A stretch of DNA of 64,000 bases from contig CM037870.1 in assembly GCA_021292105.1 (NCBI GenBank), forward strand, positions 22,770,424 through 22,834,423. The letters are read 5' to 3'. Shown here piece by piece: positions 1-64,000 of the stretch. The notes beneath the pieces are model-generated. The model searched no databases and was not told the DNA's origin. It was given only the letters and a program-made list of their open reading frames with translations. The stretch comes from Anadara kagoshimensis. Taxonomy: Eukaryota > Mollusca > Bivalvia > Arcoida > Arcidae. Made by a program: the position numbers and the translations under genes. Within the stretch, counting starts at the first letter, position 1; the number at the start of each line of letters is the position of its first letter.

Positions 1-1143
1 CAGCTACTTGACGGTAACCAGAAGCACCTAACTCAGGCTACAATCAAGTACACCTACTTGACGGTAACCAGAACCACCTAACCCAGGCTACAATCAAGTA
101 CCGCTACTTGACGATAGACAGAACCACCTTACACTAGCTACAATCAAGTATAGCTACTTGACGGTAGACAGAACCACCTAACACGGGCTACAATCAAGTA
201 CAACTACCTTACGGTAGATTAACCAACTTACACGGGCTACAATCAATTACAGCTAATTGACGGTACACAGAACCACCTTACACAGGGTACAATCAAGTAT
301 AGCTACTTGACGGTAACCAGAACCACCTTACACAGGCTACAATCAAGTACAGCTAATTGACAGTAGACAGAACTACCCTACACTGGCTACAATCAAGTAC
401 CGCTACTTGACTGTAACCAGGACCGCCTAATACTGACTTCAATCAAGTACAGCTACTTGACGGTAACCAGAACCACCTTACATAGGCTACAATGAAGTAG
501 AGCTACTTTAATGGTGAACCACCTAACATAGGCTTGAATCAAATACAATTACATGACGGTAACCAGACACACCTTACATAGGCTACAATCAATCAGCTAC
601 ATGATGGTAACCAGAACCAAATAACTTTGGCTACAATTAAGTACAGCTACTTGACGGTAACCAGAACTACCTAACTTTGGCTACAATTCAGTACACCTAC
701 TTAACGGTAGACAGAACCACCTTACACAGGCTACAATCAAGTACAGCTACTTAACGGTAACCAGAACCACCTTACACAGACTACAATCAAGTACAGCTAC
801 TTAACGGTAACCAGAACCACCTTACACAGGCTACAATCAAGTACAGCTACTTTACGGTAACCAGAACCACCTAACTTTGGCTACAATTAAGTACACCTAC
901 TTGACGGTAGACAGAACCACCTTACACAGGCTACAATCAAGTACAGCTACTTGACGGTAGACAGAATCACCTTACACGGGCTACAATCAAGTACCGCTAC
1001 TTGACGGTAGAAAGAACCACGTTACACGGGCTACAATCAAGTATAGCTACTTGACGGTAGACAGAACCACCTTACACGGGCTACAATCAAGTACACCTAC
1101 TTTACGGTAACCAGAACCAACTAACTTTTTCTACAATTAAGTA
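1..1143 (+). repeat. 50-bp minisatellite block 1 (left-truncated, T1 end)
   Basis: About 23 monomers, entering mid-monomer at the window edge. The first complete ones match the alpha middle series (agaagc, acccag, gatagac). A run of shortened monomers lies at 510-593. The block closes with the T1 series, and its last monomer ends in ctttttctac. No continuous reading frame exists: a 50-bp period shifts frame every monomer. Confidence 0.95.
510..643 (+). repeat. Shortened-monomer run inside block 1
   Basis: Distances between successive loop starts (510, 546, 594, 644) are 36, 48 and 50 bp, against the usual 50. The stem is altered (gaagtagagctacttt, then aaatacaattacatga, then caatcagctacatga). 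The same run recurs in blocks 6, 7, 8, 9, 11, 15, 16, 17, 19, 21, 23, 24 and 25, so it marks one ancestral module and was not formed separately in each block. Confidence 0.9.
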
Positions 1144-1290
1144 CAGTTATTTGACAGAGAACAGACACTTTAATTAGCTACATCTACTTGATAATAGCCG
1201 GATCCTAAGATGGACAGATTACATTGAAATACAGTTATTTTATCCTCGGGTGAACTGTAGAAAATATCGAGGTTACAGTTATAGCAATGT
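1144..1290 (+). repeat. Decayed monomers at the 5' edge of the spacer
   Basis: The stretch retains three recognisable loop-and-arm remnants: cagttatttgac at 1144, catctacttgat at 1181 and cagttatttta at 1232. A weaker acagttata lies near 1275. Their spacing of 37, 51 and about 44 bp shows that the spacer's left edge is former minisatellite that has drifted. All spacer copies share it. Confidence 0.75.
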
Positions 1291-2155
1291 TAATCCAAAT
1301 CAGAATAGGAAAACTGCTCAGTTTATTAATTTATACAATAAATAGGAACGCGTGATGAATAAGTGTCCTGTTGTCAACAATTAAATTTTCAGTATTTTAG
1401 TCGTATTTTATTGGAAATAAATTAATAAACCAAAATATTAAATCTAGATATTTATATCAAAAAATTAAATTTTAAATACTAAATATAAAATCATTCAAAA
1501 TAGAAATGCTATAATCGTGAAAAGTAACAAAAAAGGTAATGTATCATTTCAAAACACCACAACTAAGTTGGTTTAGGGTCTTATTTAAACACAAGACATT
1601 TCTGACTTTGTCAGTAATTCCTTCTCGTTATCATATAGACGATAGTATCACTCGGGTACAGCAAACACTGTCGCAGTAATCTCCGATGTGAACTGAGAAG
1701 GTGGCTTGATTAGTCAAGTAACGATCTTACGATCTACAATGTCCTTCCGGGGACACCCCTCTCCTAATTCTAGACCCCTGATCAACTTTACTAGCTGTTG
1801 CAGCACCAGTCTTCAATTAACAGGTGACTCTAGCAACAGGCATAGCTAACCTGAAGTCATCTCATATTGATGTTGCCAGAAAGTTTAATAGACCATTAAA
1901 CTAAATTCCAGAGATACTAAGTGTACATATTGTTGATAACAGTAAGCCTAGTACTATCCAAAGGAATAATTCATATATTGGTGTATTGTAAGAACATCGA
2001 CTTACAAAGCACTTCACATCAAGATCATTTATCTTATTTATGCTTCATTTTAAATCATAATATTTTAGTAGATTTTTTTAAAAATCACACTTTTGAAAAC
2101 ATTAACACATAAGAGTTTACAAATAAAATTGTTCTCAAATAACCAAAGAAACTTG
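1144..2155 (+). repeat. 1-kb spacer copy 1
   Basis: 1,012 bp. Carries gattac in its 5' part, as do the other spacers that follow T1 blocks. It lacks about 12 bp (gttgttctgggt) after ccttctcg, present in most copies. The second hairpin has one arm change (TCGCAG instead of TCGGAG). It has the A form of the atttAtct marker and is followed by an alpha block. Confidence 0.95.
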
Positions 2156-2894: not shown

Positions 2895-3914
2895 CAGTTA
2901 TTTGACAGAGAACAGACACTTTAATTAGCTACATCTACTTGATAATAGCCGGATCCTAAGATGGACAGATCACATTGAAATACAGTTATTTTATCCTCGG
3001 GTGAACTGTAGAAAATATCGAGGTTACAGTTATAGCAATGTTAATCCAAATCAGAATAGGAAAACTGCTCAGTTTATTAATTTATACAATAAATAGGAAT
3101 GCGTGATGAATAAGTGTCCTGTTGTCAACAATTAAATTTTCAGTATTTTAGTCGTATTTTATTGGAAATAAATTAATAAACCAAAATATTAAATCTAGAT
3201 ATTTATATCAAAAAATTAAATTTTAAATACTAAATATAAAATCATTCAAAATAGAAATGCTATAATCGTGAAAAGTAACAAAAAAGGTAATGTATCATTT
3301 CAAAACACCACAACTAAGTTGGTTTAGGGTCTTATTTAAACACAAGACATTTCTGATTTTGTCAGTAATTCCTTCTCGTGTTGTTCTGGGTGTTATCGTA
3401 GTAGTATCACTCGGGTACAGCAAACACTGTCGGAGTAATCTCCGATGTGAACTGAGAAGGTGGCTTGATTAGTCAAGTAACGATCTTACGATCTACAATG
3501 TCCTTCCGGGGACACCCTCTCCTAATTCTAGACCCTGATCAACTTTACTAGTTAGCTGTTGCAGCACCAGTCTTCAATTAACAGGTGACTCTAGCAACAG
3601 GCATAGCTAACCTGAAGTCATCTCATATTGATGTTGCCAGAAAGTTTAATAGACCATTAAACTAAATTCCAGAGATACTAAGTGTACATATTGTTGATAA
3701 CAGTAAGCCTAGTACTATCCAAAGGAATAATTCATATATTGGTGTATTGTAAGAACCTCGACTTACAAAGCACTTCACATCAAGATCATTTGTCTTATTA
3801 TGCTTCATTTTAAATCATAATATTTTAGTAGATTTTTTAAAAATCACACTTTTGAAAACATTAACACATAAGAGTTTACAAATAAAATTGTTCTCAAATA
3901 AACAAAGAAACTTG
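2895..3914 (+). repeat. 1-kb spacer copy 2 (divergent)
   Basis: 1,020 bp. The MluI site is lost (aatgcgtg). The stretch after gttatc reads gtagtagtatcac, lacking the usual tagacgat, and this opens a 60-codon frame from 3290. It has gttagctg where later copies have only gctg, a trait shared with copy 3. Carries atttGtct and precedes a beta block. Confidence 0.95.
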
Positions 3915-5005
3915 CCGGTAACCGGAACCACCTAACACAGGCTACAATCAAGTACAGCTACTTGACGGTACACAGAACCACCTTACACAGGCTACAATCA
4001 AGTACAGCTACTTGACGGTAACCAGAACCACCTAACACGAGCTACAATCAAGTACAGCTACTTGACGGTAACCAGAACCACCTAACTCAGGCTACAATCA
4101 AGTACAGCTACTTGACGGTAACCAGAACAACCTAACTCAGGCTACAATCAAGTACACCTACTTGACGGTAACCAGAACCACATAACTCAGGCTACAATCA
4201 AGTACACCTACTTGACGGTAACCACAACCACCTAACTCAGGCTACAATCAAGTATAGCTACTTGACGGTAACCAGAACCACCTTACACTGGCTACAATCA
4301 AGTACCGCTACTTGAAGGTAGACAGAACCGCCTTACACGGGCTACAACCAAGTATAGCTACTTGACGGTAACCAGAACCACCTTACACAGGCTACAATCA
4401 ATTACAGCTAATTGACGGTAGACAGAACCACCTTACACAGAGTACAATCAAGTATAGCTACTTGACGGTAACCAGAACCACCTTACACAGGCTACAATCA
4501 AGTACAGCTAATTGACTGTAACCAGGACCACCTAATACTGACTTCAAATAAGTACAGCTACTTGACGGTAACCAGAACCACCTTACACAGACTACAATCA
4601 AGTACAGAAACTTAACGGTAACCAGAACCACCTTACACAGGCTACAATCAAGTACAGCTACTTTACGGTAACCAGAACCACCTAACTTTGGCTACAATTA
4701 AGTACAGCTACTTGACGGTAGACAGAACCACCTAACTTTGGCTACAATTAAGTACACCTACTTGACGGTAGACAGAACCACCTTACACAGGCTACAATCA
4801 AGTACAGCTACTTGACGGTAGACAGAATCACCTTACACGGGCTACAATCAAGTACCGCTACTTGACGGTAGAAAGAACCACGTTACACGGGCTACAATCA
4901 AGTACCGCTACTTGACGGTAGAAAGAACCACCTTACACGGGCTACAATCAAGTACACCTACTTTACGGTAACCAGAAACCAACTAACTTTGGCTACAATT
5001 AAGTA
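3915..5005 (+). repeat. 50-bp minisatellite block 3 (beta start)
   Basis: About 22 monomers. The start is beta. It contains an unusual cagaaacttaacgg monomer near 4597 where the stem is interrupted. The last monomer ends in ctttggctac with a doubled a (agaaacc), unlike blocks 5 onward. Confidence 0.95.
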
Positions 5006-6038
5006 CAGTTATTTGACAGAGAACAGACACTTTAATTAGCTACATCTACTTGATAATAGCCGGATCCTAAGATGGACAGATCACATTGAAATACAGTTAT
5101 TTTATCCTCGGGTGAACTGTAGAAAATATCGAGGTTACAGTTATAGCAATGTTAATCCAAATCAGAATAGGAAAACTGCTCAGTTTATTAATTTATACAA
5201 TAAATAGGAACGCGTGATGAATAAGTGTCCTGTTGTCAACAATTAAATTTTCAGTATTTTAGTCGTATTTTATTGGAAATAAATTAATAAACCAAAATAT
5301 TAAATCTAGATATTTATATCAAAAAATATAATTTTAAATACTAAATATAAAATCATTCAAAATAGAAATGCTATAATCGTGAAAAAGAAACAAAAAAGGT
5401 AATGTATCATTTCAAAACACCACAACTAAGTTGGTTTAGGGTCTTATTTAAACACAAGACATTTCTGACTTTGTCAGTAATTCCTTCTCGTGTTGTTCTG
5501 GGTGTTATCGTATAGAAGATAGTATCACTAGGGTACAGCAAACACTGTCGGAGTAATCTCCGATGTGAACTGAGAAGGTGGCTTGATTAGTCAAGTAACG
5601 ATCTTACGATCTACAATGTCCTTCCGGGGACACCCCTCTCCTAATTCTAGACCCCTGATCAACTTTACTAGTTAGCTGTTGCAGCACCAGTCTTCAATTA
5701 ACAGGTGACTCTAGCAACAGGCATAGCTAACCTGAAGTCATCTCATATTGATGTTGCCAGAAAGTTTAATAGACCATTAAACTAAATTCCAGAGATACTA
5801 AGTGTACATATTGTTGATCTAACAGTAAGCCTAGTACTATCCAAAGGAATAATTCATATATTGGTGTATTGTAAGAACATCGACTTACAAAGCACTTCAC
5901 ATCAAGATCATTTGTCTTATTTATGCTTCATTTTAAATCATAATATTTTAGTAGATTTTTTTAAAAATCACACTTTTGAAAACATTAACACATAAGAGTT
6001 TACAAATAAAATTGTTCTCAAATAACCAAAGAAACTTG
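5006..6038 (+). repeat. 1-kb spacer copy 3 (divergent, longest)
   Basis: 1,033 bp. Private changes include ttgatctaaca (inserted bases), gaaaaagaaacaa, aaatataatttt and cactagggtac. It shares gttagctg with copy 2. Carries atttGtct and precedes a beta block. Confidence 0.95.
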
Positions 6039-7228
6039 CCGGTAACCGGAACCACCTAACACAGGCTACAATTAAGTACAGCTACTTGACGGTACACAGA
6101 ACCATCTTACACAGGCTACAATCAAGTACAGCTACTTGACGGTAACCAGAACCACCTAACACGAGCTACAATCAAGTACAGCTACTTGACGGTAACCAGA
6201 ACCACCTAACTCAGGCTACAATCAAGTACAGCTACTTGACGGTAACCAGAACCACCTAACTCAGGCTACAATCAAGTACACCTACTTGACGGTAACCAGA
6301 ACCACATAACTCAGGCTACAATCAAGTACACCTACTTGACGGTAACCGGAACCACCTAACTCAGGCTACAATCAAGTACAGCTACTTGACGGTAACCAGA
6401 AGCACCTAACTCAGGCTACAATCAAGTACAGCTACTTGACGGTAACCAGAAGCACCTAACTCAGGCTACAATCAAGTACACCTACTTGACGGTAACTAGA
6501 ACCACCTAACTCAGGCTACAATCAAGTACCTCTACTTGACGATAGACAGAACCACCTTACACTAGCTACAATCAAGTATAGCTACTTGACGGTAGACAGA
6601 ACCACCTAACACGGGCTACAATCAAGTACAACTACCTTACGGTAGATAGAACCAACTTACACGGGCTACAATCAAGTACATCTACTTTGCGGTAGACAGA
6701 ACCACCTAACACGGGCTACAACCAAGTATAGCTACTTGACGGTAACCAGAATCACCTTACACAGGCTACAGTCAATTACAGCTAATTGACGGTAGACAGA
6801 ACCACCTAACTTTGGCTACAATTAAGTACAGCTACTTGACGGTAGACAGAACCACCTAACTTTGGCTACAATTAAGTACACCTACTTGACGGTAGACAGA
6901 ACCACCTTACACAGGCTACAATCAAGTACAGCTACTTGACGGTAGACAGAACCACCTAACTTTGGCTACAATTAAGTACACCTACTTGACGGTAGACAGA
7001 ACCACCTTACACAGGCTACAATCAAGTACAGCTACTTGACGGTAGACAGAATCACCTTACACGGGCTACAATCAAGTACCGCTACTTGACGGTAGAAAGA
7101 ACCACGTTACACGGGCTACAATCAAGTATAGCTACTTGACGGTAGACAGAACCACCTTACACGGGCTACAATCAAGTACACCTACTTTACGGTAACCAGA
7201 ACCAACTAACTTTGGCTACAATTAAGTA
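6039..7228 (+). repeat. 50-bp minisatellite block 4 (beta start, T2 end)
   Basis: About 24 monomers. The start is beta with one attaagta stem. The middle contains gatagaaccaac. In the T2 end, a 100-bp pair (ctttgg then cacct/acagg) is repeated around 6860-7020. The last monomer ends ctttggctac, the older form also seen in block 3. Confidence 0.95.
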
Positions 7229-8254
7229 CAGTTATTTGACAGAGAACAGACACTTTAATTAGCTACATCTACTTGATAATAGCCGGATCCTAAGATGGAC
7301 AGATCACATTGAAATACTGTTATTTTATCCTCGGGTGAACTGTAGAAAATATCGAGGTTACAGTTATAGCAATGTTAATCCAAATCAGAATAGGAAAACT
7401 GCTCAGTTTATTAATTTATACAATAAATAGGAACGCGTGATGAATAAGTGTCCTGTTGTCAACAATTAAATTTTCAGTATTTTAGTCGTATTTTATTGGA
7501 AATAAATTAATAAACCAAAATATTAAATCTAGATATTTATATCAAAAAATTAAATTTTAAATACTAAATATAAAATCATTCAAAATAGAAATGCTATAAT
7601 CGTGAAAAGTAACAAAAAAGGTAATGTATCATTTCAAAACACCACAACTAAGTTGGTTTAGGGTCTTATTTAAACACAAGACATTTCTGACTTTGTCAGT
7701 AATTCCTTCTCGTGTTGTTCTGGGTGTTATCATATAGACGATAGTATCACTCGGGTACAGCAAACACTGTCGCAGTAATCTCCGATGTGAACTGAGAAGG
7801 TGGCTTGATTAGTCAAGTAACGATCTTACGATCTACAATGTCCTTCCGGGGACACCCCTCTCCTAATTCTAGACCCCTGATCAACTTTACTAGCTGTTGC
7901 AGCACCAGTCTTCAATTAACAGGTGACTCTAGCAACAGGCATAGCTAACCTGAAGTCATCTCATATTGATGTTGCCAGAAAGTTTAATAGACCATTAAAC
8001 TAAATTCCAGAGATACTAAGTGTACATATTGTTGATAACAGTAAGCCTAGTACTATCCAAAGGAATAATTCATATATTGGTGTATTGTAAGAACATCGAC
8101 TTACAAAGCACTTCACATCAAGATCATTTATCTTATTTATGCTTCATTTTAAATCATAATATTTTAGTAGATTTTTTTAAAAATCACACTTTTGAAAATA
8201 TTAACACATAAGAGTTTACAAATAAAATTGTTCTCAAATAACCAAAGAAACTTG
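7229..8254 (+). repeat. 1-kb spacer copy 4
   Basis: 1,026 bp. Shares TCGCAG with copy 1. It has aaatactgttatt near the 5' end and a private gaaaatatt. Carries atttAtct but precedes a hybrid block start, the only copy where this marker and the block start do not agree cleanly. Confidence 0.95.
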
Positions 8255-9292
8255 CCGGTAACCGGAACCACCTAACACAGGCTACAATCAAGTACACCTA
8301 CTTGACGGTACACAGAACCACCTTACACAGGCTACAATCAAGTACAGCTACTTGACGGTAACCAGAACCACCTAACACGAGCTACCATCAAGTACAGCTA
8401 CCTGACGGTAACCAGAACCACCTAACTCAGGCTACAATCAAGTACAGCTACTTGACGGTAACCAGAACCACCTAACTCAGGCTACAATCAAGTACACCTA
8501 CTTGACGGTAACCAGAACCACATAACTCAGGCTACAATCAAGTACACCTACTTGACGGTAACCGGAACCACCTAACTCAGGCTACAATCAAGTACAGCTA
8601 CTTGACGGTAACCAGAAGCACCTAACTCAGGCTACAATCAAGTACACCTACTTGACGGTAACTAGAACCACCTAACTCAGGCTACAATCAAGTACCTCTA
8701 CTTGACGATAGACAGACCCCTTACACTAGCTACAATCAAGTATAGCTACTTGACGGTAGACAGAACCACCTAACACGGGCTACAATCAAGTACAACTACC
8801 TTACGGTAGATAAAACCAACTTACACGGGCTACAATCAAGTACATCTACTTTACGGTAGACAGAACCACCTAACACGGGCTACAACCAAGTATAGCTACT
8901 TGACGGTAACCAAAATCACCTTACACAGGCTACAGTCAATTACAGCTAATTGACGGTAGACAGAACCACCTAACTTTGGCTACAATTAAGTACAGCTACT
9001 TGACGGTAGACAGAACCACCTAACTTTGGCTACAATTAAGTACACCTACTTGACGGTAGACAGAACCACCTTACACAGGCTACAATCAAGTACAGCTACT
9101 TGACGGTAGACAGAATCACCTTACACGGGCTACAATCAAGTACCGCTACTTGACGGTAGAAAGAACCACGTTACACGGGCTACAATCAAGTATAGCTACT
9201 TGACGGTAGACAGAACCACCTTACACGGGCTACAATCAAGTACACCTACTTTACGATAACCAGAACCAACTAACTTTTTCTACAATTAAGTA
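8255..9292 (+). repeat. 50-bp minisatellite block 5 (hybrid start, T2 end)
   Basis: About 21 monomers. The second monomer is alpha-like (cacct), but the next half is beta-like (gtacacag), marking a crossover in the first 60 bp. Carries gataaaaccaac. One monomer is shortened near 8710 (gacagacccctta). From here on every block ends in ctttttctac. Confidence 0.95.
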
Positions 9293-10317
9293 CAGTTATT
9301 TGACAGAGAACAGACACTTTAATTAGCTACATCTACTTGATAATAGCCGGATCCTAAGATGGACAGATCACATTGAAATACAGTTATTTTATCCTCGGTG
9401 AACTGTAGAAAATATCGAGGTTACAGTTATAGCAATGTTAATCCAAATCAGAATAGGAAAACTGCTCAGTTTATTAATTTATACAATAAATAGGAACGCG
9501 TGATGAATAAGTGTCCTGTTGTCAACAATTAAATTTTCAGTATTTTAGTCGTATTTTATTGGAAATAAATTAATAAACCAAAATATTAAATCTAGATATT
9601 TATATCAAAAAATTAAATTTTAAATACTAAATATAAAATCATTCAAAATAGAAATGCTATAATCGTGAAAAGTAACAACAAAGGTAATGTATCATTTCAA
9701 AACACCACAACTAAGTTGGTTTAGGGTCTTATTTAAACACAAGACATTTCTGACTTTGTCAGTAATTCCTTCTCGTGTTGTTCTGGGTGTTATCATATAG
9801 ACGATAGTATCACTCGGGTACAGCAAACACTGTCGGAGTAATCTCCGATGTGAACTGAGAAGGTGGCTTGATTAGTCAAGTAACGATCTTACGATCTACA
9901 ATGTCCTTCCGGGGACACCCCTCTCCTAATTCTAGACCCCTGATCAACTTTACTAGCTGTTGCAGCACCAGTCTTCAATTAACAGGTGACTCTAGCAACA
10001 GGCATAGCTAACCTGAAGTCATCTCATATTGATGTTGCCAGAAAGTTTAATAGACCATTAAACTAAATTCCAGAGATACTAAGTGTACATATTGTTGATA
10101 ACAGTAAGCCTAGTACTATCCAAAGGAATAATTCATATATTGGTGTATTGTAAGAACATCGACTTACAAAGCACTTCACATCAAGATCATTTGTCTTATT
10201 TATGCTTCATTTTAAATCATAATATTTTAGTAGATTTTTTTAAAAATCACACTTTTGAAAACATTAACACATAAGAGTTTACAAATAAAATTGTTCTCAA
10301 ATAACCAAAGAAACTTG
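9293..10317 (+). repeat. 1-kb spacer copy 5
   Basis: 1,025 bp. First copy with the aacaaCaaagg variant. One g is missing in cctcggtgaac. Hairpin arms are intact. Carries atttGtct and precedes a beta start. Confidence 0.95.
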
Positions 10318-11549
10318 CCGGTAACCGGAACCACCTAACACAGGCTACAATCAAGTACAGCTACTTGACGGTACACAGAACCACCTACACAGGCTACAAT
10401 CAAGTACAGCTACTTGACGGTAACCAGAACCACCTAACACGAGCTACAATCAAGTACAGCTACCTGACGGTAACCAGAACCACCTAACCCAGGCTACAAT
10501 CAAGTACCGCTACTTGACGATAGACAGAACCACCTTACACTAGCTACAATCAAGTATAGCTACTTGACGGTAGACAGAACCACCTAACACGGACTACAAT
10601 CAAGTACAACTACCTTACGGTAGATTAACCAACTTACACGGGCTACAATCAATTACAGCTAATTGACGGTACACAGAACCACCTTACACAGGGTACAATC
10701 AAGTATAGCTACTTGACGGTAACCAGAACCACCTTACACAGGCTACAATCAAGTACAGCTAATTGACAGTAGACAGAACTACCCTACACTGGCTACAATC
10801 AAGTACCGCTACTTGACTGTAACCAGGACCGCCTAATACTGACTTCAATCAAGTACAGCTACTTGACGGTAACCAGAACCACCTTACATAGGCTACAATG
10901 AAGTAGAGCTACTTTAATGGTGAACCACCTAACATAGGCTTGAATCAAATACAATTACATGACGGTAACCAGACACACCTTACATAGGCTACAATCAATC
11001 AGCTACATGATGGTAACCAGAACCAAATAACTTTGGCTACAATTAAGTACAGCTACTTGACGGTAACCAGAACTACCTAACTTTGGCTACAATTCAGTAC
11101 ACCTACTTAACGGTAGACAGAACCACCTTACACAGGCTACAATCAAGTACAGCTACTTAACGGTAACCAGAACCACCTTACACAGACTACAATCAAGTAC
11201 AGCTACTTAACGGTAACCAGAACCACCTTACACAGGCTACAATCAAGTACAGCTACTTTACGGTAACCAGAACCACCTAACTTTGGCTACAATTAAGTAC
11301 ACCTACTTGACGGTAGACAGAACCACCTTACACAGGCTACAATCAAGTACAGCTACTTGACGGTAGACAGAATCACCTTACACGGGCTACAATCAAGTAC
11401 CGCTACTTGACGGTAGAAAGAACCACGTTACACGGGCTACAATCAAGTATAGCTACTTGACGGTAGACAGAACCACCTTACACGGGCTACAATCAAGTAC
11501 ACCTACTTTACGGTAACCAGAACCAACTAACTTTTTCTACAATTAAGTA
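10318..11549 (+). repeat. 50-bp minisatellite block 6 (beta start, T1 end)
   Basis: About 25 monomers. After a beta start and the cctgacgg monomer it switches to the acccag alpha middle at about 10,485. It then follows the block 1 series monomer for monomer, including the shortened run, to a T1 end. Confidence 0.95.
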
Positions 11550-12574
11550 CAGTTATTTGACAGAGAACAGACACTTTAATTAGCTACATCTACTTGATAA
11601 TAGCCGGATCCTAAGATGGACAGATTACATTGAAATACAGTTATTTTATCCTCGGGTGAACTGTAGAAAATATCGAGGTTACAGTTATAGCAATGTTAAT
11701 CCAAATCAGAATAGGAAAACTGCTCAGTTTATTAATTTATACAATAAATAGGAACGCGTGATGAATAAGTGTCCTGTTGTCAACAATTAAATTTTCAGTA
11801 TTTTAGTCGTATTTTATTGGAAATAAATTAATAAACCAAAATATTAAATCTAGATATTTATATCAAAAAATTAAATTTTAAATACTAAATATAAAATCAT
11901 TCAAAATAGAAATGCTATAATCGTGAAAAGTAACAACAAAGGTAATGTATCATTTCAAAACACCACAACTAAGTTGGTTTAGGGTCTTATTTAAACACAA
12001 GACATTTCTGACTTTGTCAGTAATTCCTTCTCGTGTTGTTCTGGGTGTTATCATATAGACGATAGTATCACTCGGGTACAGCAAACACTGTCGGAGTAAT
12101 CTCCGATGTGAACTGAGAAGGTGGCTTGATTAGTCAAGTAACGATCTTACGATCTACAATGTCCTTCCGGGGACACCCCTCTCCTAATTCTAGACCCCTG
12201 ATCAACTTTACTAGCTGTTGCAGCACCAGTCTTCAATTAACAGGTGACTCTAGCAACAGGCATAGCTAACCTGAAGTCATCTCATATTGATGTTGCCAGA
12301 AAGTTTAATAGACCATTAAACTAAATTCCAGAGATACTAAGTGTACATATTGTTGATAACAGTAAGCCTAGTACTATCCAAAGGAATAATTCATATATTG
12401 GTGTATTGTAAGAACATCGACTTACAAAGCACTTCACATCAAGATCATTTATCTTATTTATGCTTCATTTTAAATCATAATATTTAGTAGATTTTTTTAA
12501 AAATCACACTTTTGAAAACATTAACACATAAGAGTTTACAAATAAAATTGTTCTCAAATAACCAAAGAAACTTG
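11550..12574 (+). repeat. 1-kb spacer copy 6 (recombinant haplotype)
   Basis: 1,025 bp. Combines gattac and aacaaCaaagg with atttAtct, a combination found in no other copy, so it is probably a recombinant between spacer types. One t is lost in aatatttagtag. Confidence 0.95.
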
Positions 12575-23349: not shown

Positions 23350-23584
23350 CAGTTATTTGACAGAGAACAGACACTTTAATTAGCTACATCTACTTGATAA
23401 TAGCCGGATCCTAAGATGGACAGATCACATTGAAATACAGTTATTTTATCCTCGGGTGAACTGTAGAAAATATCGAGGTTACAGTTATAGCAATGTTAAT
23501 CCAAATCAGAATAGGAAAACTGCTCAGTTTATTAATTTATACAATAAATAGGAACGCGTGATGAATAAGTGTCCTGTTGTCAAC

Positions 23585-23720
23585 AATTAAATTTTCAGTA
23601 TTTTAGTCGTATTTTATTGGAAATAAATTAATAAACCAAAATATTAAATCTAGATATTTATATCAAAAAATTAAATTTTAAATACTAAATATAAAATCAT
23701 TCAAAATAGAAATGCTATAA
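23585..23720. other. AT-rich tract of the spacer (reference copy)
   Basis: About 135 bp made almost only of A and T, with phased short A/T runs (aattaaatttt, ggaaataaatta, tcaaaaaattaaatttta, aatataaaatc). It sits about 235 bp into every spacer copy. It includes taaatataaaa, whose complement matches the 11-base budding-yeast origin core. Such tracts can be bent DNA, matrix attachment or replication-origin sites, but in an AT-only stretch these matches are weak. Confidence 0.6.
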
Positions 23721-23807
23721 TCGTGAAAAGTAACAAAAAAGGTAATGTATCATTTCAAAACACCACAACTAAGTTGGTTTAGGGTCTTATTTAAACACAA
23801 GACATTT

Positions 23808-24365: not shown

Positions 24366-24383
24366 AAGAAACTTGCCGGTAAC
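24366..24383. other. Boundary palindrome between spacer and block
   Basis: The join of each spacer to the next block reads CCGGTAACCGG, an 11-bp inverted repeat with a single central A, here at 24,376-24,386. It recurs at nearly all 24 joins (copy 19 has lost one base of it). Inside the blocks the same position is usually reduced to GGTAACC or ggtagac. Confidence 0.7.
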
Positions 24384-52009: not shown

Positions 52010-53841
52010 CCGGTAACCGGAACCACCTAACACAGGCTACAATCAAGTACACCTACTTGACGGTAACCGGAACCACCTAACTCAGGCTACAATCAAGTAC
52101 AGCTACTTGACGGTAACCAGAAGCACCTAACTCAGGCTACAATCAAGTACACCTACTTGACGGTAACCAGAACCACCTAACCCAGGCTACAATCAAGTAC
52201 CGCTACTTGACGATAGACAGAACCACCTTACACTAGCTACAATCAAGTATAGCTACTTGACGGTAGACAGAACCACCTAACACGGGCTACAATCAAGTAC
52301 AACTACCTTACGGTAGATTAACCAACTTACACGGGCTACAATCAATACAGCTAATTGACGGTACACAGAACCACCTTACACAGGGTACAATCAAGTATAG
52401 CTACTTGACGGTAACCAGAACCACCTTACACAGGCTACAATCAAGTACAGCTAATTGACAGTAGACAGAACTACCCTACACTGGCTACAATCAAGTACCG
52501 CTACTTGACTGTAACCAGGACCGCCTAATACTGACTTCAATCAAGTACAGCTACTTGACGGTAACCAGAACCACCTTACATAGGCTACAATGAAGTAGAG
52601 CTACTTTAATGGTGAACCACCTAACATAGGCTTCAATCAAATACAATTACATGACGGTAACCAGACACACCTTACATAGGCTACAATCAATCAGCTACAT
52701 GATGGTAACCAGAACCAAATAACTTTGGCTACAATTAAGTACAGCTACTTGACGGTAACCAGAACTACCTAACTTTGGCTACAATTCAGTACACCTACTT
52801 AACGGTAGACAGAACCACCTTACACAGGCTACAATCAAGTACAGCTACTTAACGGTAACCAGAACCACCTTACACAGACTACAATCAAGTACAGCTACTT
52901 GACGGTAACCAGAACCACCTAACACGAGCTACCATCAAGTACAGCTACCTGACGGTAACCAGAACCACCTAACTCAGGCTACAATCAAGTACAGCTACTT
53001 GACGGTAACCAGAACCACCTAACTCAGGCTACAATCAAGTACACCTACTTGACGGTAACCAGAACCACATAACTCAGGCTACAATCAAGTACACCTACTT
53101 GACGGTAACCGGAACCACCTAACTCAGGCTACAATCAAGTACAGCTACTTGACGGTAACCAGAAGCACCTAACTCAGGCTACAATCAAGTACACCTACTT
53201 GACGGTAACTAGAACCACCTAACTCAGGCTACAATCAAGTACCTCTACTTGACGATAGACAGAACCACCTTACACTAGCTACAATCAAGTATAGCTACTT
53301 GACGGTAGACAGAACCACCTAACACGGGCTACAATCAAGTACAACTACCTTACGGTAGATAAAACCAACTTACACGGGCTACAATCAAGTACATCTACTT
53401 TACGGTAGACAGAACCACCTAACACGGGCTACAACCAAGTATAGCTACTTGACGGTAACCAGAATCACCTTACACAGGCTACAGTCAATTACAGCTAATT
53501 GACGGTAGACAGAACCACCTAACTTTGGCTACAATTAAGTACAGCTACTTGACGGTAGACAGAACCACCTAACTTTGGCTACAATTAAGTACACCTACTT
53601 GACGGTAGACAGAACCACCTTACACAGGCTACAATCAAGTACAGCTACTTGACGGTAGACAGAATCACCTTACACGGGCTACAATCAAGTACCGCTACTT
53701 GACGGTAGAAAGAACCACGTTACACGGGCTACAATCAAGTATAGCTACTTGACGGTAGACAGAACCACCTTACACGGGCTACAATCAAGTACACCTACTT
53801 TACGGTAACCAGAACCAACTAACTTTTTCTACAATTAAGTA
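52010..53841 (+). repeat. 50-bp minisatellite block 21 (alpha start, T2 end)
   Basis: About 37 monomers in the block 7 order. One base is lost in the compensated stem monomer (caatacagctaattg, near 52,345). Confidence 0.95.
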
Positions 53842-54865
53842 CAGTTATTTGACAGAGAACAGACACTTTAATTAGCTACATCTACTTGATAATAGCCGGA
53901 TCCTAAGATGGACAGATCACATTGAAATACAGTTATTTTATCCTCGGGTGAACTGTAGAAAATATCGAGGTTACAGTTATAGCAATGTTAATCCAAATCA
54001 GAATAGGAAAACTGCTCAGTTTATTAATTTATACAATAAATAGGAACGCGTGATGAATAAGTGTCCTGTTGTCAACAATTAAATTTTCAGTATTTTAGTC
54101 GTATTTTATTGGAAATAAATTAATAAACCAAAATATTAAATCTAGATATTTATATCAAAAAATTAAATTTTAAATACTAAATATAAAATCATTCAAAATA
54201 GAAATGCTATAATCGTGAAAAGTAACAACAAAGGTAATGTATCATTTCAAAACACCACAACTAAGTTGGTTTAGGGTCTTATTTAAACACAAGACATTTC
54301 TGACTTTGTCAGTAATTCCTTCTCGTGTTGTTCTGGGTGTTATCATATAGACGATAGTATCACTCGGGTACAGCAAACACTGTCGGAGTAATCTCCGATG
54401 TGAACTGAGAAGGTGGCTTGATTAGTCAAGTAACGATCTTACGATCTACAATGTCCTTCCGGGGACACCCCTCTCCTAATTCTAGACCCTGATCAACTTT
54501 ACTAGCTGTTGCAGCACCAGTCTTCAATTAACAGGTGACTCTAGCAACAGGCATAGCTAACCTGAAGTCATCTCATATTGATGTTGCCAGAAAGTTTAAT
54601 AGACCATTAAACTAAATTCCAGAGATACTAAGTGTACATATTGTTGATAACAGTAAGCCTAGTACTATCCAAAGGAATAATTCATATATTGGTGTATTGT
54701 AAGAACATCGACTTACAAAGCACTTCACATCAAGATCATTTGTCTTATTTATGCTTCATTTTAAATCATAATATTTTAGTAGATTTTTTAAAAATCACAC
54801 TTTTGAAAACATTAACACATAAGAGTTTACAAATAAAATTGTTCTCAAATAACCAAAGAAACTTG
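53842..54865 (+). repeat. 1-kb spacer copy 21
   Basis: 1,024 bp. Lost c in tctagaccctgatc and lost t in the 3' t-run, so the recurrent short frame reads 84 codons into the block. Has the C variant and atttGtct. Confidence 0.95.
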
Positions 54866-56348
54866 CCGGTAACCGGAACCACCTAACACAGGCTACAATC
54901 AAGTACAGCTACTTGACGGTACACAGAACCACCTTACACAGGCTACAATCAAGTACAGCTACTTGACGGTAACCAGAACCACCTAACACGAGCTACAATC
55001 AAGTACAGCTACCTGACGGTAACCAGAACCACCTAACTCAGGCTACAATCAAGTACAGCTACTTGACGGTAACCAGAACCACCTAACTCAGGCTACAATC
55101 AAGTACACCTACTTGACGGTAACCAGAACCACATAACTCAGGCTACAATCAAGTACACCTACTTGACGGTAACCGGAACCACCTAACTCAGGCTACAATC
55201 AAGTACAGCTACTTGACGGTAACCAGAAGCACCTAACTCAGGCTACAATCAAGTACCGCTGCTTGACGATAGACAGAACCACCTTACACTAGCTACAATC
55301 AAGTATAGCTACTTGACGGTAGACAGAACCACCTAACACGGGCTACAATCAAGTACACCTACTTGACGGTAACCAGAACCACATAACTCAGGCTACAATC
55401 AATTACACCTACTTGACGGTAACCGGAACCACCTAACTCAGGCTACAATCAAGTACAGCTACTTGACGGTAACCAGAAGCACCTAACTCAGGCTACAATC
55501 AAGTACACCTACTTGACGGTAACTAGAACCACCTAACTCAGGCTACAATCAAGTACCTCTACTTGACGATAGACAGAACCACCTTACACTAGCTACAATC
55601 AAGTATAGCTACTTGACGGTAGACAGAACCACCTAACACGGGCTACAATCAAGTACAACTACCTTACGGTAGATAGAACCAACTTACACGGGCTACAATC
55701 AAGTACATCTACTTTACGGTAGACAGAACCACCTAACACGGGCTACAACCAAGTATAGCTACTTGACGGTAACCAGAATCATTACACAGGCTACAGTCAA
55801 TTACAGCTAATTGACGGTAGACAGAACCACCTAACTTTGGCTACAATTAAGTACAGCTACTTGACGGTAGACAGAACCACCTAACTTTGGCTACAATTAA
55901 GTACACCTACTTGACGGTAGACAGAACCACCTAACTTTGGCTACAATAAGTACAGCTACTTGACGGTAGACAGAACAACCTAACTTTGGCTACAATTAAG
56001 TACCTAATTGACGGTAGACAGAACAACCTAACTTTGGCTACAATTAAGTACAGCTACTTGACGGTAGACAGAACCACCTAACTTTGGCTACAATTAAGTA
56101 CCTACTTGACGGTAGACAGAACCACCTTACACAGGCTACAATCAAGTACAGCTACTTGACGGTAGACAGAATCACCTTACACGGGCTACAATCAAGTACC
56201 GCTACTTGACGGTAGAAAGAACCACGTTACACGGGCTACAATCAAGTATAGCTACTTGACGGTAGACAGAACCACCTTACACGGGCTACAATCAAGTACA
56301 CCTACTTTACGGTAACCAGAACCAACTAACTTTTTCTACAATTAAGTA
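54866..56348 (+). repeat. 50-bp minisatellite block 22 (beta start, T2 end)
   Basis: About 30 monomers. Beta series, then six ctttgg monomers at about 55,820-56,090, more than in most blocks. Three lack bases in or beside the stem loop (caataagtacagct, gtacctaattg, gtacctacttg). Confidence 0.95.
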
Positions 56349-57375
56349 CAGTTATTTGACAGAGAACAGACACTTTAATTAGCTACATCTACTTGATAAT
56401 AGCCGGATCCTAAGATGGACAGATCACATTGAAATACAGTTATTTTATCCTCGGGTGAACTGTAGAAAAATATCGAGGTTACAGTTATAGCAATGTTAAT
56501 CCAAATCAGAATAGGAAAACTGCTCAGTTTATTAATTTATACAATAAATAGGAACGCGTGATGAATAAGTGTCCTGTTGTCAACAATTAAATTTTCAGTA
56601 TTTTAGTCGTATTTTATTGGAAATAAATTAATAAACCAAAATATTAAATCTAGATATTTATATCAAAAAATTAAATTTTAAATACTAAATATAAAATCAT
56701 TCAAAATAGAAATGCTATAATCGTGAAAAGTAACAAAAAAGGTAATGTATCATTTCAAAACACCACAACTAAGTTGGTTTAGGGTCTTATTTAAACACAA
56801 GACATTTCTGACTTTGTCAGTAATTCCTTCTCGTGTTGTTCTGGGTGTTATCATATAGACGATAGTATCACTCGGGTACAGCAAACACTGTCGGAGTAAT
56901 CTCCGATGTGAACTGAGAAGGTGGCTTGATTAGTCAAGTAACGATCTTACGATCTACAATGTCCTTCCGGGGACACCCCTCTCCTAATTCTAGACCCCTG
57001 ATCAACTTTACTAGCTGTTGCAGCACCAGTCTTCAATTAACAGGTGACTCTAGCAACAGGCATAGCTAACTTGAAGTCATCTCATATTGATGTTGCCAGA
57101 AAGTTTAATAGACCATTAAACTAAATTCCAGAGATACTAAGTGTACATATTGTTGATAACAGTAAGCCTAGTACTATCCAAAGGAATAATTCATATATTG
57201 GTGTATTGTAAGAACATCGACTTACAAAGCACTTCACATCAAGATCATTTATCTTATTTATGCTTCATTTTAAATCATAATATTTTAGTAGATTTTTTTA
57301 AAAATCACACTTTTGAAAACATTAACACATAAGAGTTTACAAATAAAATTGTTCTCAAATAACCAAAGAAACTTG
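56349..57375 (+). repeat. 1-kb spacer copy 22
   Basis: 1,027 bp. Carries aacTtgaag and one extra a in gtagaaaaatatc. Has gatcac, aacaaAaaagg and atttAtct. Confidence 0.95.
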
Positions 57376-58603
57376 CCGGTAACCGGAACCACCTAACACA
57401 GGCTACAATCAAGTACACCTACTTGACGGTAACCGGAACCACCTAACTCAGGCTACAATCAAGTACAGCTACTTGACGGTAACCAGAAGCACCTAACTCA
57501 GGCTACAATCAAGTACACCTACTTGACGGTAACCAGAACCACCTAACCCAGGCTACAATCAAGTACCGCTACTTGACGATAGACAGAACCACCTTACACT
57601 AGCTACAATCAAGTATAGCTACTTGACGGTAGACAGAACCACCTAACACGGGCTACAATCAAGTACAACTACCTTACGGTAGATTAACCAACTTACACGG
57701 GCTACAATCAATTACAGCTAATTGACGGTACACAGAACCACCTTACACAGGGTACAATCAAGTATAGCTACTTGGTAACCAGAACCACCTTACACAGGCT
57801 ACAATCAAGTACAGCTAATTGACAGTAGACAGAACTACCCTACACTGGCTACAATCAAGTACCGCTACTTGACTGTAACCAGGACCGCCTAATACTGACT
57901 TCAATCAAGTACAGCTACTTGACGGTAACCAGAACCACCTTACATAGGCTACAATGAAGTAGAGCTACTTTAATGGTGAACCACCTAACATAGGCTTGAA
58001 TCAAATACAATTACATGACGGTAACCAGACACACCTTACATAGGCTACAATCAATCAGCTACATGATGGTAACCAGAACCAAATAACTTTGGCTACAATT
58101 AAGTACAGCTACTTGACGGTAACCAGAACTACCTAACTTTGGCTACAATTCAGTACACCTACTTAACGGTAGACAGAACCACCTACACAGGCTACAATCA
58201 AGTACAGCTACTTAACGGTAACCAGAACCACCTTACACAGACTACAATCAAGTACAGCTACTTAACGGTAACCAGAACCACCTTACACAGGCTACAATCA
58301 AGTACAGCTACTTACGGTAACCAGAACCACCTAACTTTGGCTACAATTAAGTACACCTACTTGACGGTAGACAGAACCACCTTACACAGGCTACAATCAA
58401 GTACAGCTACTTGACGGTAGACAGAATCACCTTACACGGGCTACAATCAAGTACCGCTACTTGACGGTAGAAAGAACCACGTTACACGGGCTACAATCAA
58501 GTATAGCTACTTGACGGTAGACAGAACCACCTTACACGGGCTACAATCAAGTACACCTACTTTACGGTAACCAGAACCAACTAACTTTTTCTACAATTAA
58601 GTA
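57376..58603 (+). repeat. 50-bp minisatellite block 23 (alpha start, T1 end)
   Basis: About 25 monomers in the block 15 order with a few lost bases (ctacttggtaacc, ccacctacacag, ctacttacgg). The losses keep one frame open for 91 codons from 58,139. This is a chance effect, as the corresponding monomers in blocks 15 and 24 contain stops. Confidence 0.95.
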
Positions 58604-59616
58604 CAGTTATTTGACAGAGAACAGACACTTTAATTAGCTACATCTACTTGATAATAGCCGGATCCTAAGATGGACAGATACATTGAAATACAGTTATTTT
58701 ATCCTCGGGTGAACTGTAGAAAATATCGAGGTTACAGTTATAGCAATGTTAATCCAAATAGGCTGCTCAGTTTATTAATTTATACAATAAATAGGAACGC
58801 GTGATGAATAAGTGTCCTGTTGTCAACAATTAAATTTTCAGTATTTTAGTCGTATTTTATTGGAAATAAATTAATAAACCAAAATATTAAATCTAGATAT
58901 TTATATCAAAAATTAAATTTTAAATACTAAATATAAAATCATTCAAAATAGAAATGCTATAATCGTGAAAAGTAACAAAAAGGTAATGTATCATTTCAAA
59001 ACACCACAACTAAGTTGGTTTAGGGTCTTATTTAAACACAAGACATTTCTGACTTTGTCAGTAATTCCTTCTCGTGTTGTTCTGGGTGTTATCATATAGA
59101 CGATAGTATCACTCGGGTACAGCAAACACTGTCGGAGTAATCTCCGATGTGAACTGAGAAGGTGGCTTGATTAGTCAAGTAACGATCTTACGATCTACAA
59201 TGTCCTTCCGGGGACACCCCTCTCCTAATTCTAGACCCCTGATCAACTTTACTAGCTGTTGCAGCACCAGTCTTCAATTAACAGGTGACTCTAGCAACAG
59301 GCATAGCTAACCTGAAGTCATCTCATATTGATGTTGCCAGAAAGTTTAATAGACCATTAAACTAAATTCCAGAGATACTAAGTGTACATATTGTTGATAA
59401 CAGTAAGCCTAGTACTATCCAAAGGAATAATTCATATATTGGTGTATTGTAAGAACATCGACTTACAAAGCACTTCACATCAAGATCATTTATCTTATTT
59501 ATGCTTCATTTTAAATCATAATATTTTAGTAGATTTTTTTAAAAATCACACTTTTGAAAACATTAACACATAAGAGTTTACAAATAAAATTGTTCTCAAA
59601 TAACCAAAGAAACTTG
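58604..59616 (+). repeat. 1-kb spacer copy 23 (small deletion)
   Basis: 1,013 bp. Two nearby losses (6 and 4 bp) turn the stretch after aatccaaat into aggctgctcag at about 58,757-58,770. One base is lost in acagatacattg, where a T1-following spacer would have gattac. Has atttAtct. Confidence 0.95.
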
Positions 59617-60849
59617 CCGGTAACCGGAACCACCTAACACAGGCTACAATCAAGTACACCTACTTGACGGTAACCGGAACCACCTAACTCAGGCTACAAT
59701 CAAGTACAGCTACTTGACGGTAACCAGAAGCACCTAACTCAGGCTACAATCAAGTACACCTACTTGACGGTAACCAGAACCACCTAACCCAGGCTACAAT
59801 CAAGTACCGCTACTTGACGATAGACAGAACCACCTTACACTAGCTACAATCAAGTATAGCTACTTGACGGTAGACAGAACCACCTAACACGGGCTACAAT
59901 CAAGTACAACTACCTTACGGTAGATTAACCAACTTACACGGGCTACAATCAATTACAGCTAATTGACGGTACACAGAACCACCTTACACAGGGTACAATC
60001 AAGTATAGCTACTTGACGGTAACCAGAACCACCTTACACAGGCTACAATCAAGTACAGCTAATTGACAGTAGACAGAACTACCCTACACTGGCTACAATC
60101 AAGTACCGCTACTTGACTGTAACCAGGACCGCCTAATACTGACTTCAATCAAGTACAGCTACTTGACGGTAACCAGAACCACCTTACATAGGCTACAATG
60201 AAGTAGAGCTACTTTAATGGTGAACCACCTAACATAGGCTTCAATCAAATACAATTACATGACGGTAACCAGACACACCTTACATAGGCTACAATCAATC
60301 AGCTACATGATGGTAACCAGAACCAAATAACTTTGGCTACAATTAAGTACAGCTACTTGACGGTAACCAGAACTACCTAACTTTGGCTACAATTCAGTAC
60401 ACCTACTTAACGGTAGACAGAACCACCTTACACAGGCTACAATCAAGTACAGCTACTTAACGGTAACCAGAACCACCTTACACAGACTACAATCAAGTAC
60501 AGCTACTTAACGGTAACCAGAACCACCTTACACAGGCTACAATCAAGTACAGCTACTTTACGGTAACCAGAACCACCTAACTTTGGCTACAATTAAGTAC
60601 ACCTACTTGACGGTAGACAGAACCACCTTACACAGGCTACAATCAAGTACAGCTACTTGACGGTAGACAGAATCACCTTACACGGGCTACAATCAAGTAC
60701 CGCTACTTGACGGTAGAAAGAACCACGTTACACGGGCTACAATCAAGTATAGCTACTTGACGGTAGACAGAACCACCTTACACGGGCTACAATCAAGTAC
60801 ACCTACTTTACGGTAACCAGAACCAACTAACTTTTTCTACAATTAAGTA
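59617..60849 (+). repeat. 50-bp minisatellite block 24 (alpha start, T1 end)
   Basis: About 25 monomers in the block 15 order, but with the ggcttCaatcaaa form of the shortened run that otherwise accompanies T2 blocks. Confidence 0.95.
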
Positions 60850-61861
60850 CAGTTATTTGACAGAGAACAGACACTTTAATTAGCTACATCTACTTGATAA
60901 TAGCCGGATCCTAAGATGGACAGATTACATTGAAATACAGTTATTTTATCCTCGGGTGAACTGTAGAAAATATCGAGGTTACAGTTATAGCAATGTTAAT
61001 CCAAACTGCTCAGTTTATTAATTTATACAATAAATAGGAACGCGTGATGAATAAGTGTCCTGTTGTCAACAATTAAATTTTCAGTATTTTAGTCGTATTT
61101 TATTGGAAATAAATTAATAAACCAAAATATTAAATCTAGATATTTATATCAAAAAATTAAATTTTAAATACTAAATATAAAATCATTCAAAATAGAAATG
61201 CTATAATCGTGAAAAGTAACAAAAAAGGTAATGTATCATTTCAAAACACCACAACTAAGTTGGTTTAGGGTCTTATTTAAACACAAGACATTTCTGACTT
61301 TGTCAGTAATTCCTTCTCGTGTTGTTCTGGGTGTTATCATATAGACGATAGTATCACTCGGGTACAGCAAACACTGTCGGAGTAATCTCCGATGTGAACT
61401 GAGAAGGTGGCTTGATTAGTCAAGTAACGATCTTACGATCTACAATGTCCTTCCGGGGACACCCCTCTCCTAATTCTAGACCCCTGATCAACTTTACTAG
61501 CTGTTGCAGCACCAGTCTTCAATTAACAGGTGACTCTAGCAACAGGCATAGCTAACCTGAAGTCATCTCATATTGATGTTGCCAGAAAGTTTAATAGACC
61601 ATTAAACTAAATTCCAGAGATACTAAGTGTACATATTGTTGATAACAGTAAGCCTAGTACTATCCAAAGGAATAATTCATATATTGGTGTATTGTAAGAA
61701 CATCGACTTACAAAGCACTTCACATCAAGATCATTTATCTTATTTATGCTTCATTTTAAATCATAATATTTTAGTAGATTTTTTTAAAAATCACACTTTT
61801 GAAAACATTAACACATAAGAGTTTACAAATAAAATTGTTCTCAAATAACCAAAGAAACTTG
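60850..61861 (+). repeat. 1-kb spacer copy 24 (small deletion)
   Basis: 1,012 bp. A 14-bp loss joins aatccaaa directly to ctgctcag at about 61,004. The loss overlaps the pair of losses in copy 23 but has different ends. Has gattac and atttAtct. Confidence 0.95.
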
Positions 61862-63840
61862 CCGGTAACCGGAACCACCTAACACAGGCTACAATCAAGT
61901 ACACCTACTTGACGGTAACCGGAACCACCTAACTCAGGCTACAATCAAGTACAGCTACTTGACGGTAACCAGAAGCACCTAACTCAGGCTACAATCAAGT
62001 ACACCTACTTGACGGTAACCAGAACCACCTAACCCAGGCTACAATCAAGTACCGCTACTTGACGATAGACAGAACCACCTTACACTAGCTACAATCAAGT
62101 ATAGCTACTTGACGGTAGACAGAACCACCTAACACGGGCTACAATCAAGTACAACTACCTTACGGTAGATTAACCAACTTACACGGGCTACAATCAATTA
62201 CAGCTAATTGACGGTACACAGAACCACCTTACACAGGGTACAATCAAGTATAGCTACTTGACGGTAACCAGAACCACCTTACACAGGCTACAATCAAGTA
62301 CAGCTAATTGACAGTAGACAGAACTACCCTACACTGGCTACAATCAAGTACCGCTACTTGACTGTAACCAGGACCGCCTAATACTGACTTCAATCAAGTA
62401 CAGCTACTTGACGGTAACCAGAACCACCTTACATAGGCTACAATGAAGTAGAGCTACTTTAATGGTGAACCACCTAACATAGGCTTCAATCAAATACAAT
62501 TACATGACGGTAACCAGACACACCTTACATAGGCTACAATCAATCAGCTACATGATGGTAACCAGAACCAAATAACTTTGGCTACAATTAAGTACAGCTA
62601 CTTGACGGTAACCAGAACTACCTAACTTTGGCTACAATTCAGTACACCTACTTGACGGTAACCGGAACCACCTAACTCAGGCTACAATCAAGTACAGCTA
62701 CTTGACGGTAACCAGAAGCACCTAACTCAGGCTACAATCAAGTACCGCTGCTGACGATAGACAGAACCACCTTACACTAGCTACAATCAAGTATAGCTAC
62801 TTGACGGTAGACAGAACCACCTAACACGGGCTACAATCAAGTACACCTACTTGACGGTAACCAGAACCACATAACTCAGGCTACAATCAATTACACCTAC
62901 TTGACGGTAACCGGAACCACCTAACTCAGGCTACAATCAAGTACAGCTACTTGACGGTAACCAGAAGCACCTAACTCAGGCTACAATCAAGTACACCTAC
63001 TTGACGGTAACTAGAACCACCTAACTCAGGCTACAATCAAGTACCTCTACTTGACGATAGACAGAACCACCTTACACTAGCTACAATCAAGTATAGCTAC
63101 TTGACGGTAGACAGAACCACCTAACACGGGCTACAATCAAGTACAACTACCTTACGGTAGATAGAACCAACTTACACGGGCTACAATCAAGTACATCTAC
63201 TTTACGGTAGACAGAACCACCTAACACGGGCTACAACCAAGTATAGCTACTTGACGGTAACCAGAATCACCTTACACAGGCTACAGTCAATTACAGCTAA
63301 TTGACGGTAGACAGAACCACCTAACTTTGGCTACAATTAAGTACAGCTACTTGACGGTAGACAGAACCACCAACTTTGGCTACAATTAAGTACAGCTACT
63401 TGACGGTAGACAGAACCACCTAACTTGGCTACAATTAAGTACAGCTACTTGACGGTAGACAGAACCACCTAACTTGGCTACAATTAAGTACAGCTAATTG
63501 ACGGTAGACAGAACAACCTAACTTTGGCTACAATTAAGTACAGCTACTTGACGGTAGACAGAACCACCTAACTTTGGCTACAATTAAGTACACCTACTTG
63601 ACGGTAGACAGAACCACCTTACACAGGCTACAATCAAGTACAGCTACTTGACGGTAGACAGAATCACCTTACACGGGCTACAATCAAGTACCGCTACTTG
63701 ACGGTAGAAAGAACCACGTTACACGGGCTACAATCAAGTATAGCTACTTGACGGTAGACAGAACCACCTTACACGGGCTACAATCAAGTACACCTACTTT
63801 ACGGTAACCAGAACCAACTAACTTTTTCTACAATTAAGTA
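61862..63840 (+). repeat. 50-bp minisatellite block 25 (alpha start, T2 end)
   Basis: About 40 monomers. After the shortened run, the aattcagtacacct monomer passes at 62,641-62,660 from the T1-bound series (expected cttaacggtagac) to the beta series (cttgacggtaaccgg). The T2 end holds six ctttgg monomers (63,320-63,580), three with small losses (accaactttgg, taacttggc twice). Confidence 0.95.
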
Positions 63841-64000
63841 CAGTTATTTGACAGAGAACAGACACTTTAATTAGCTACATCTACTTGATAATAGCCGGAT
63901 CCTAAGATGGACAGATCACATTGAAATACAGTTATTTTATCCTCGGGTGAACTGTAGAAAATATCGAGGTTACAGTTATAGCAATGTTAATCCAAATCAG
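63841..64000 (+). repeat. 1-kb spacer copy 25 (cut by window edge)
   Basis: First 160 bp only: decayed monomers and the BamHI site, with gatcac as expected after a T2 block. The satellite clearly continues beyond the window. Confidence 0.95.

Follow-up and report, generated by a model that had tools for sequence, protein, structure and literature searches.

The 64-kb stretch of Anadara kagoshimensis contig CM037870.1 analysed here (positions 22,770,424 to 22,834,423; the window, numbered from 1 to 64,000) is filled end to end by a tandem array, in which blocks of a 50-bp minisatellite monomer alternate with spacers of about 1 kb. The repeat unit consists of one minisatellite block and one non-repetitive segment and is 1.8-3.9 kb long. 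The array is very probably a complex (composite) satellite DNA whose whole unit is homogenised, and is itself most likely structural or neutral heterochromatic DNA.

BLAST with one spacer as the query (spacer 3, 5008-6034) matched 25 copies, all on the plus strand and 24 of them complete, and the parse of the intervening sequence gave 25 blocks. The initial annotation had described 25 blocks and 25 spacers in a single orientation with nothing else, which agrees with this result: no other sequence was found between blocks and spacers in the window, and reverse orientation never gave the better fit to the monomer consensus (0 of 793 segments of at least 40 nucleotides; lowest identity 74%). The window ends cut block 1 (1-1145) and spacer 25, of which the first 158 bp are present (63843-64000). 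Complete spacers (n = 24) measure 1,006-1,027 bp (mean 1,017, standard deviation 4.9), and complete blocks (n = 24) range from 745 bp in block 2 (2152-2896; 15 monomers) to 2,837 bp in block 11 (24372-27208; 57 monomers), with a mean of 1,595 bp. The lengths reported earlier (blocks of 739-2,831 bp, spacers of 1,012-1,033 bp) are recovered save for a constant 6-bp offset, which reflects boundary placement. Parsing yielded 794 segments, exactly 50 bp long in 664 cases, and block lengths accordingly change by nearly whole monomers; among the other 130 are first and last monomers, trimmed to 47-49 bp by the choice of boundary, and a 5-bp remnant where the window begins. Similarity to the monomer persists over the first 60-70 bp or so of the spacer (local score 34; best of 200 shuffles 31), and the left spacer edge is therefore probably decayed monomer, making the block edge gradual there. 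The remaining spacer aligns to the monomer no better than the best shuffle on either strand (41 vs 59; 39 vs 44).

The array has the properties of satellite DNA. It runs head to tail in one orientation (25 of 25 spacers on the plus strand) with a kilobase unit (block plus following spacer, 1,759-3,856 bp in 23 complete units). Homogeneity within it is high, with 0.38% difference among spacers and 0-1.7% among the first and last five monomers of the blocks. It appears to be non-coding: scans of the window found no open reading frame of at least 100 amino acids, no transfer RNA (tRNA) and no Rfam family at gathering score.

Comparison of all pairs gives a mean difference of 0.38% substitutions per site for the 24 complete spacers and 13.7% for the 664 full-length monomers. 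This contrast sets unlike things side by side, and when monomers are compared by position the last five of the block are about as uniform as the spacer. Counted back from the block end, and with each position restricted to monomers of its modal length (n = 22 to 25), the mean difference is 0.0% at positions -5 and -4, 0.5% at -3, 0.3% at -2 and 1.0% at -1. At -5 and at -4 one sequence is shared by every one of the 25 blocks, and at -3, -2 and -1 by 23, 22 and 21 of them. Further in, the difference rises to 2.1% at -6 and to 9-12% at -7 and -8. At the block start the first monomer, common to all 24 complete blocks within 0-2 edits, differs by 1.7%; positions 2-5 differ by 3-9%, a lower uniformity that arises because two start classes of block exist. 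It is thus the whole unit, not the spacer alone, that is homogenised.

The same follows from blocks of like architecture, for which 12 pairs were drawn from eight of the 25 (blocks 6, 15, 23 and 24; blocks 7, 16, 17 and 21). Nine pairs differ by 1-3 substitutions per 1.2-1.8 kb, and the other three, all involving block 6 (10314-11551), which has a recombinant start, by 12-13. The downstream spacers of the 12 pairs differ by 0-3 substitutions per 1.0 kb. Block pairs have 0-9 gaps and spacer pairs 1-9, which makes gaps denser per kilobase in the spacers. Within these eight blocks divergence is not above that of the spacers, and there is no sign of a tighter hold on the spacer. The initial annotation had proposed that a spacer keeping its length and sequence while blocks expand and contract could be under selection or be the unit of homogenisation. 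The data favour homogenisation, but for the unit as a whole (last five monomers 0.0-1.0%, spacer 0.4%), which accounts for the pattern with no need to invoke selection on the spacer.

The spacer had also been called invariant, which fits its near-constant length but not its sequence. Relative to their own consensus, 54 substitutions and 47 indel events are spread over the 24 complete spacers. The larger deletions amount to 14 bp (3 + 11, within the foldback core described below) in spacer 1 (1146-2151), 6 bp in spacer 2 (2897-3910), 10 bp in spacer 23 (58606-59612) and 14 bp in spacer 24 (60852-61857). The most divergent are spacers 2 and 3, with seven substitutions each, and spacer 19 (48128-49145), with eight, of which five cluster at alignment columns 971-978. 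The left of the window (2897-6034), which holds spacers 2 and 3 and the fragmented block 3, may be closer to an edge or to an older part of the array.

Within blocks, near-identical ends enclose interiors that are in-register mosaics of a small, ordered set of monomer variants. The 794 segments comprise 128 different sequences, which fall into 76 clusters (within one edit). Coded as letters, these variants recur across blocks as the same runs in conserved order: the 769 pairs of neighbouring variants represent only 133 pair types, while 500 within-block shuffles give a mean of 548 and a minimum of 521. Two pairs of blocks have identical letter strings throughout, namely block 7 (12571-14409; 37 monomers) with block 21 (52006-53843), and block 15 (35524-36762) with block 24 (59613-60851). 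In the two longest, block 9 (18189-20935; 55 monomers) and block 11, a start like that of block 14 (33110-34504) is joined in register to an end like that of block 7, save for one to three private monomers, and both look like products of unequal exchange. Not all blocks are simple mosaics; block 3 (3911-5007), the most fragmented relative to the others, splits into 17 segments, and block 20 (49146-50987), with a local two-monomer expansion (hKhKhKh), into 15.

At two spacer sites the variant goes with the type of the block end next to it. At spacer site 75, T occurs only after upstream block ends of type g (5 of 5) and C only after ends of type F (18 of 18); the remaining copy, which follows a g end, has a gap there (Fisher P = 3e-5, a guide, as copies are not independent). 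At spacer site 914, G precedes downstream block starts of class D in 9 of 9 cases and A precedes class E in 14 of 15 (Fisher P = 8e-6, again a guide), the start class of blocks 6 and 17 being less clear than the rest. Spacers two units apart are also alike beyond chance, with a lag-2 agreement of 0.797 at seven informative sites (P = 0.001; 12 lags tested, lag 10 giving P = 0.04), and at lag 2 the start classes of blocks match in 17 of 22 comparisons (P = 0.005). Block classes alternate strictly in blocks 6-13 (including block 8, 15429-17168; block 10, 21956-23351; block 12, 28228-29524; and block 13, 30547-32091) and in blocks 17-23 (including block 17, 40633-42464; block 18, 43486-44823; block 19, 45839-48127; block 22, 54862-56350; and block 23, 57372-58605). 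The two longest alternating runs are significant when taken together (P = 0.01). The strict alternation suggests that units form dimers in blocks 6-13 and 17-23 and not elsewhere, and hints weakly at a third level at which units partly alternate as dimers.

Exchange at the level of the monomer and of the unit is familiar from satellites and from the spacers of ribosomal DNA (rDNA), and unequal sister-chromatid exchange and/or gene conversion probably shaped the present array. Exchange between misaligned monomers would shift block length by whole 50-bp steps without displacing the spacer or either block end. When whole units pair out of register, exchange would duplicate, delete and homogenise spacers. 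Spacer length would be kept mechanically, and not necessarily by selection, as the spacer has no internal tandem repeat to misalign. Together, the two levels of exchange would account for variable blocks, constant spacers, constant block ends, mosaic interiors and linkage.

Several observations weigh against homogenisation by exchange as the account of this array. Exchange is deduced from the pattern of a single array, and that pattern does not separate unequal crossing-over from gene conversion or from rolling-circle reinsertion. The upstream spacers of the 12 block pairs differ by 1-11 substitutions. The highest of these values (9 and 11) come from spacers 15 (36763-37779) and 20 (50988-52005) compared with spacer 16 (39617-40632; seven indel events); joint alignment gives each only 1-2 substitutions, and the excess is probably an effect of aligning them in pairs across indels. 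Over the array as a whole the two block classes do not alternate significantly (14 of 23 changes, P = 0.22), and the longest alternating run is likewise not significant (P = 0.07). In a toy neutral simulation (12 runs, arbitrary rates) the coefficient of variation of block length was 0.39-3.13, in every run above the observed 0.31. We dropped this simulation as support, as it is too crude and overshoots the observed length variation.

Selection for a function of the spacer, for instance that of an origin, of a centromere element or of a promoter for a non-coding RNA, is quite improbable as the reason why it stays constant while the blocks drift. Spacer length stays within a range of 21 bp over 24 copies, AT-rich zones flank a foldable and more G+C-rich core, and short hairpins number 23 in the spacer against a shuffle mean of 13 (P = 0.01), or 8 against 4.4 in the core stretch alone (P = 0.07). 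Against this, conservation of the spacer does not exceed that of the last five monomers or of blocks of the same architecture, the longest variant-free stretch in the spacer is not unusual (75; random mean of the longest 89; P = 0.74), and the core stems vary. The window likewise has no exact CENP-B box match on either strand, no open reading frame of at least 100 amino acids and, at gathering score, no Rfam family. Among other candidate functions, the hammerhead ribozyme was rejected, its core CTGANGA being absent from both strands of the spacer consensus, as was an RNA polymerase III promoter, for which the A and B boxes are absent from the spacer consensus in the strict form tested. In AT-rich DNA, the single occurrence of a yeast-type origin consensus, on the minus strand of the spacer, is uninformative.

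The spacer is 69% A+T, with AT-rich zones (75-83%) on both sides of a core of 53-56% A+T. This foldback core of about 250 bp occupies spacer positions 421-670 and is illustrated by spacer 9 (20936-21955), which is 1,020 bp long and without indels relative to the consensus; there it lies at 21356-21605, and it spans 236-254 nucleotides across the 24 complete spacers. Its outer arms are inverted, with 13 of 17 matches (spacer positions 420-436 vs 641-657). Folded as RNA, the core gives z scores of -4.06 and -3.79 on the two strands, with 0 of 200 shuffles as good on each, and as DNA the fold is weaker (z = -2.26; 1 of 200 shuffles as good); the core was chosen as the best of a scan (30 windows of 120 nucleotides, 24 of 250 and 14 of 400), so these z scores are somewhat flattered. 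Fold energies are -61, -77, -75 and -72 kcal/mol for copies 1-4, -75 to -80 for copies 5-24 and -79 for the consensus. Variable columns make up 25 of the 156 paired and 6 of the 94 unpaired positions, 14 of the 25 being one 14-bp loss in spacer 1, and the stems are not protected from variation. A function of the core as RNA was set aside, given that both strands fold about equally well and variation falls in the stems. Rfam on one spacer (E up to 10) gave weak matches only, far under the family cut-offs.

The core is possibly a decayed foldback (mobile) element, which fits as well as anything. A broader proposal makes the spacer, or block and spacer together, a non-autonomous mobile element with its own central minisatellite (for example Helitron-like, or a repeat-carrying miniature inverted-repeat transposable element, MITE) that came to lie in tandem head to tail; we regard this as unlikely. 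Helitrons end at 3' in a hairpin followed by CTRR. A scan for this type of end reported none on either strand of the spacer consensus. The inverted arms and an RNA fold that beats all 200 shuffles on each strand favour the proposal; by eye no convincing target-site duplication lies beside the arms, the fold is weaker as DNA, and all 25 spacers share one orientation and one place in the unit. In the passages available of two reviews, elements with internal tandem repeats, and satellites born from them, are described (PMC10048060; PMC9659126). Such satellites have in common with the present array a minisatellite and unique flanks within one unit, with a foldback core in the present spacer, and differ in that our scan of its consensus found no Helitron end.

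A further proposal, that the spacer is a captured foldback element which became a fixed part of a three-level satellite (monomer, unit and dimer), its core acting as an origin, a source of structured RNA or an initiator of recombination that drives homogenisation, seems to us distinctly improbable.

Whole-unit homogenisation of a complex satellite also has close parallels in rDNA, and the array might be read as an rDNA intergenic spacer (IGS) or a derivative of one, with enhancer repeats punctuated by spacer promoters. In the available passages on the IGS of the Daphnia pulex complex (PMC3036644), subrepeat copy number varies by unequal exchange in which terminal repeats rarely take part, and the unit is proposed to be homogenised jointly with some of the non-repetitive segment beside it. 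Layout and behaviour are thus alike, with blocks of variable copy number beside non-repetitive segments. Unlike the Daphnia IGS, the present array has 25 iterations of its spacer and no gene: across the 64 kb there is no tRNA and no ribosomal RNA (rRNA) match at Rfam gathering score, so that it does not lie between rRNA genes within the window, and no rRNA appears even among the weak Rfam matches to one unit up to E = 5. Identity with an IGS, or descent from one, is very improbable.

Complex satellites offer another comparison. In bovine 1.711 satellites, repeats of short period are combined with inserts of non-repetitive sequence about 0.6-1.2 kb long. Bovidae complex satellites with kilobase units, for which the available part of PMC7644632 gives about 2.6 kb (1.711b) and about 3.8 kb (1.709), resemble the present array in their tandem 2-4 kb units, a likeness in unit size. 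Satellite higher-order repeats with subrepeats occur in molluscs and other organisms, and unequal exchange at the subrepeat level creates new unit lengths that then spread (PMC5874043, in the part available); compared with the repeats described in that part, the present unit also holds a 1-kb segment mostly unrelated to the monomer. The excerpts of PMC3152781 treat repeat-size classes of 1-50 bp and have no bearing on the present array. Among the matches listed in the literature on this topic, as far as their excerpts go, no satellite like the present array is described, and six short monomer and spacer strings are absent from the full text of PMC papers. The array belongs to a known kind, the complex satellite, and reveals no new kind of system. 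Long, contiguous and clean, it reads as a record of unequal exchange on nested scales, in which recombinant blocks can be made out and spacer variants go with block ends. Models of satellite evolution could draw on it as a natural data set.

Sequence searches gave no convincing relative in phage, plasmid, viral-contig or prokaryote collections. The 1.6-kb unit had no blastn match in phages and plasmids (E 1e-5), and exact patterns of the array had none in viral contigs and prokaryote genomes. The spacer core matched 11 phage records (E up to 10); the five among the matches listed span 24-30 nucleotides at E 2-5 and were taken as chance. Rfam on one unit (E up to 5) gave weak matches only, far under the cut-off of each family.

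It is highly unlikely that the regularity of the array is partly an artefact of assembly, through collapsed or mis-joined copies. Single-base events account for 36 of the 47 spacer indels, and 30 of the 36 fall within homopolymers of at least three bases, which looks like residual long-read error; units between 39.6 and 46 kb carry several private single-base deletions. From one unit to the next, however, the linked variants and the distinct block architectures change, and collapse would erase such variation. The private deletions, in spacer or monomers at 39617-45838 and also at 49146-50987 and 54862-58605, are likely residual consensus error of long reads. Such error leaves the argument for homogenisation unaffected.

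The other members of the array, all on the plus strand, are as follows. Blocks 4 (6035-7230), 5 (8251-9294), 16 (37780-39616) and 25 (61858-63842) were delimited by the block parse. Spacer BLAST placed spacers 4 (7231-8250), 5 (9295-10313), 6 (11552-12570), 7 (14410-15428), 8 (17169-18188), 10 (23352-24371), 11 (27209-28227), 12 (29525-30546), 13 (32092-33109), 14 (34505-35523), 17 (42465-43485), 18 (44824-45838), 21 (53844-54861) and 22 (56351-57371).

The junction between monomers is a near-palindrome (CAAGTACAGCTACTTG), and because of it a block folds well as RNA (z = -4.45 at 22350-22840). Blocks give weak matches to microRNA precursors in Rfam, far under cut-off. The monomer bears what we take to be a resemblance to bacterial 16S rRNA near helix 18, presumably by chance, as Rfam has no rRNA match. 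Strand asymmetry extends all along the window: the plus strand is C- and A-rich, with a GC skew of -0.15 to -0.28 and an AT skew of +0.14 to +0.28 in 2-kb steps.

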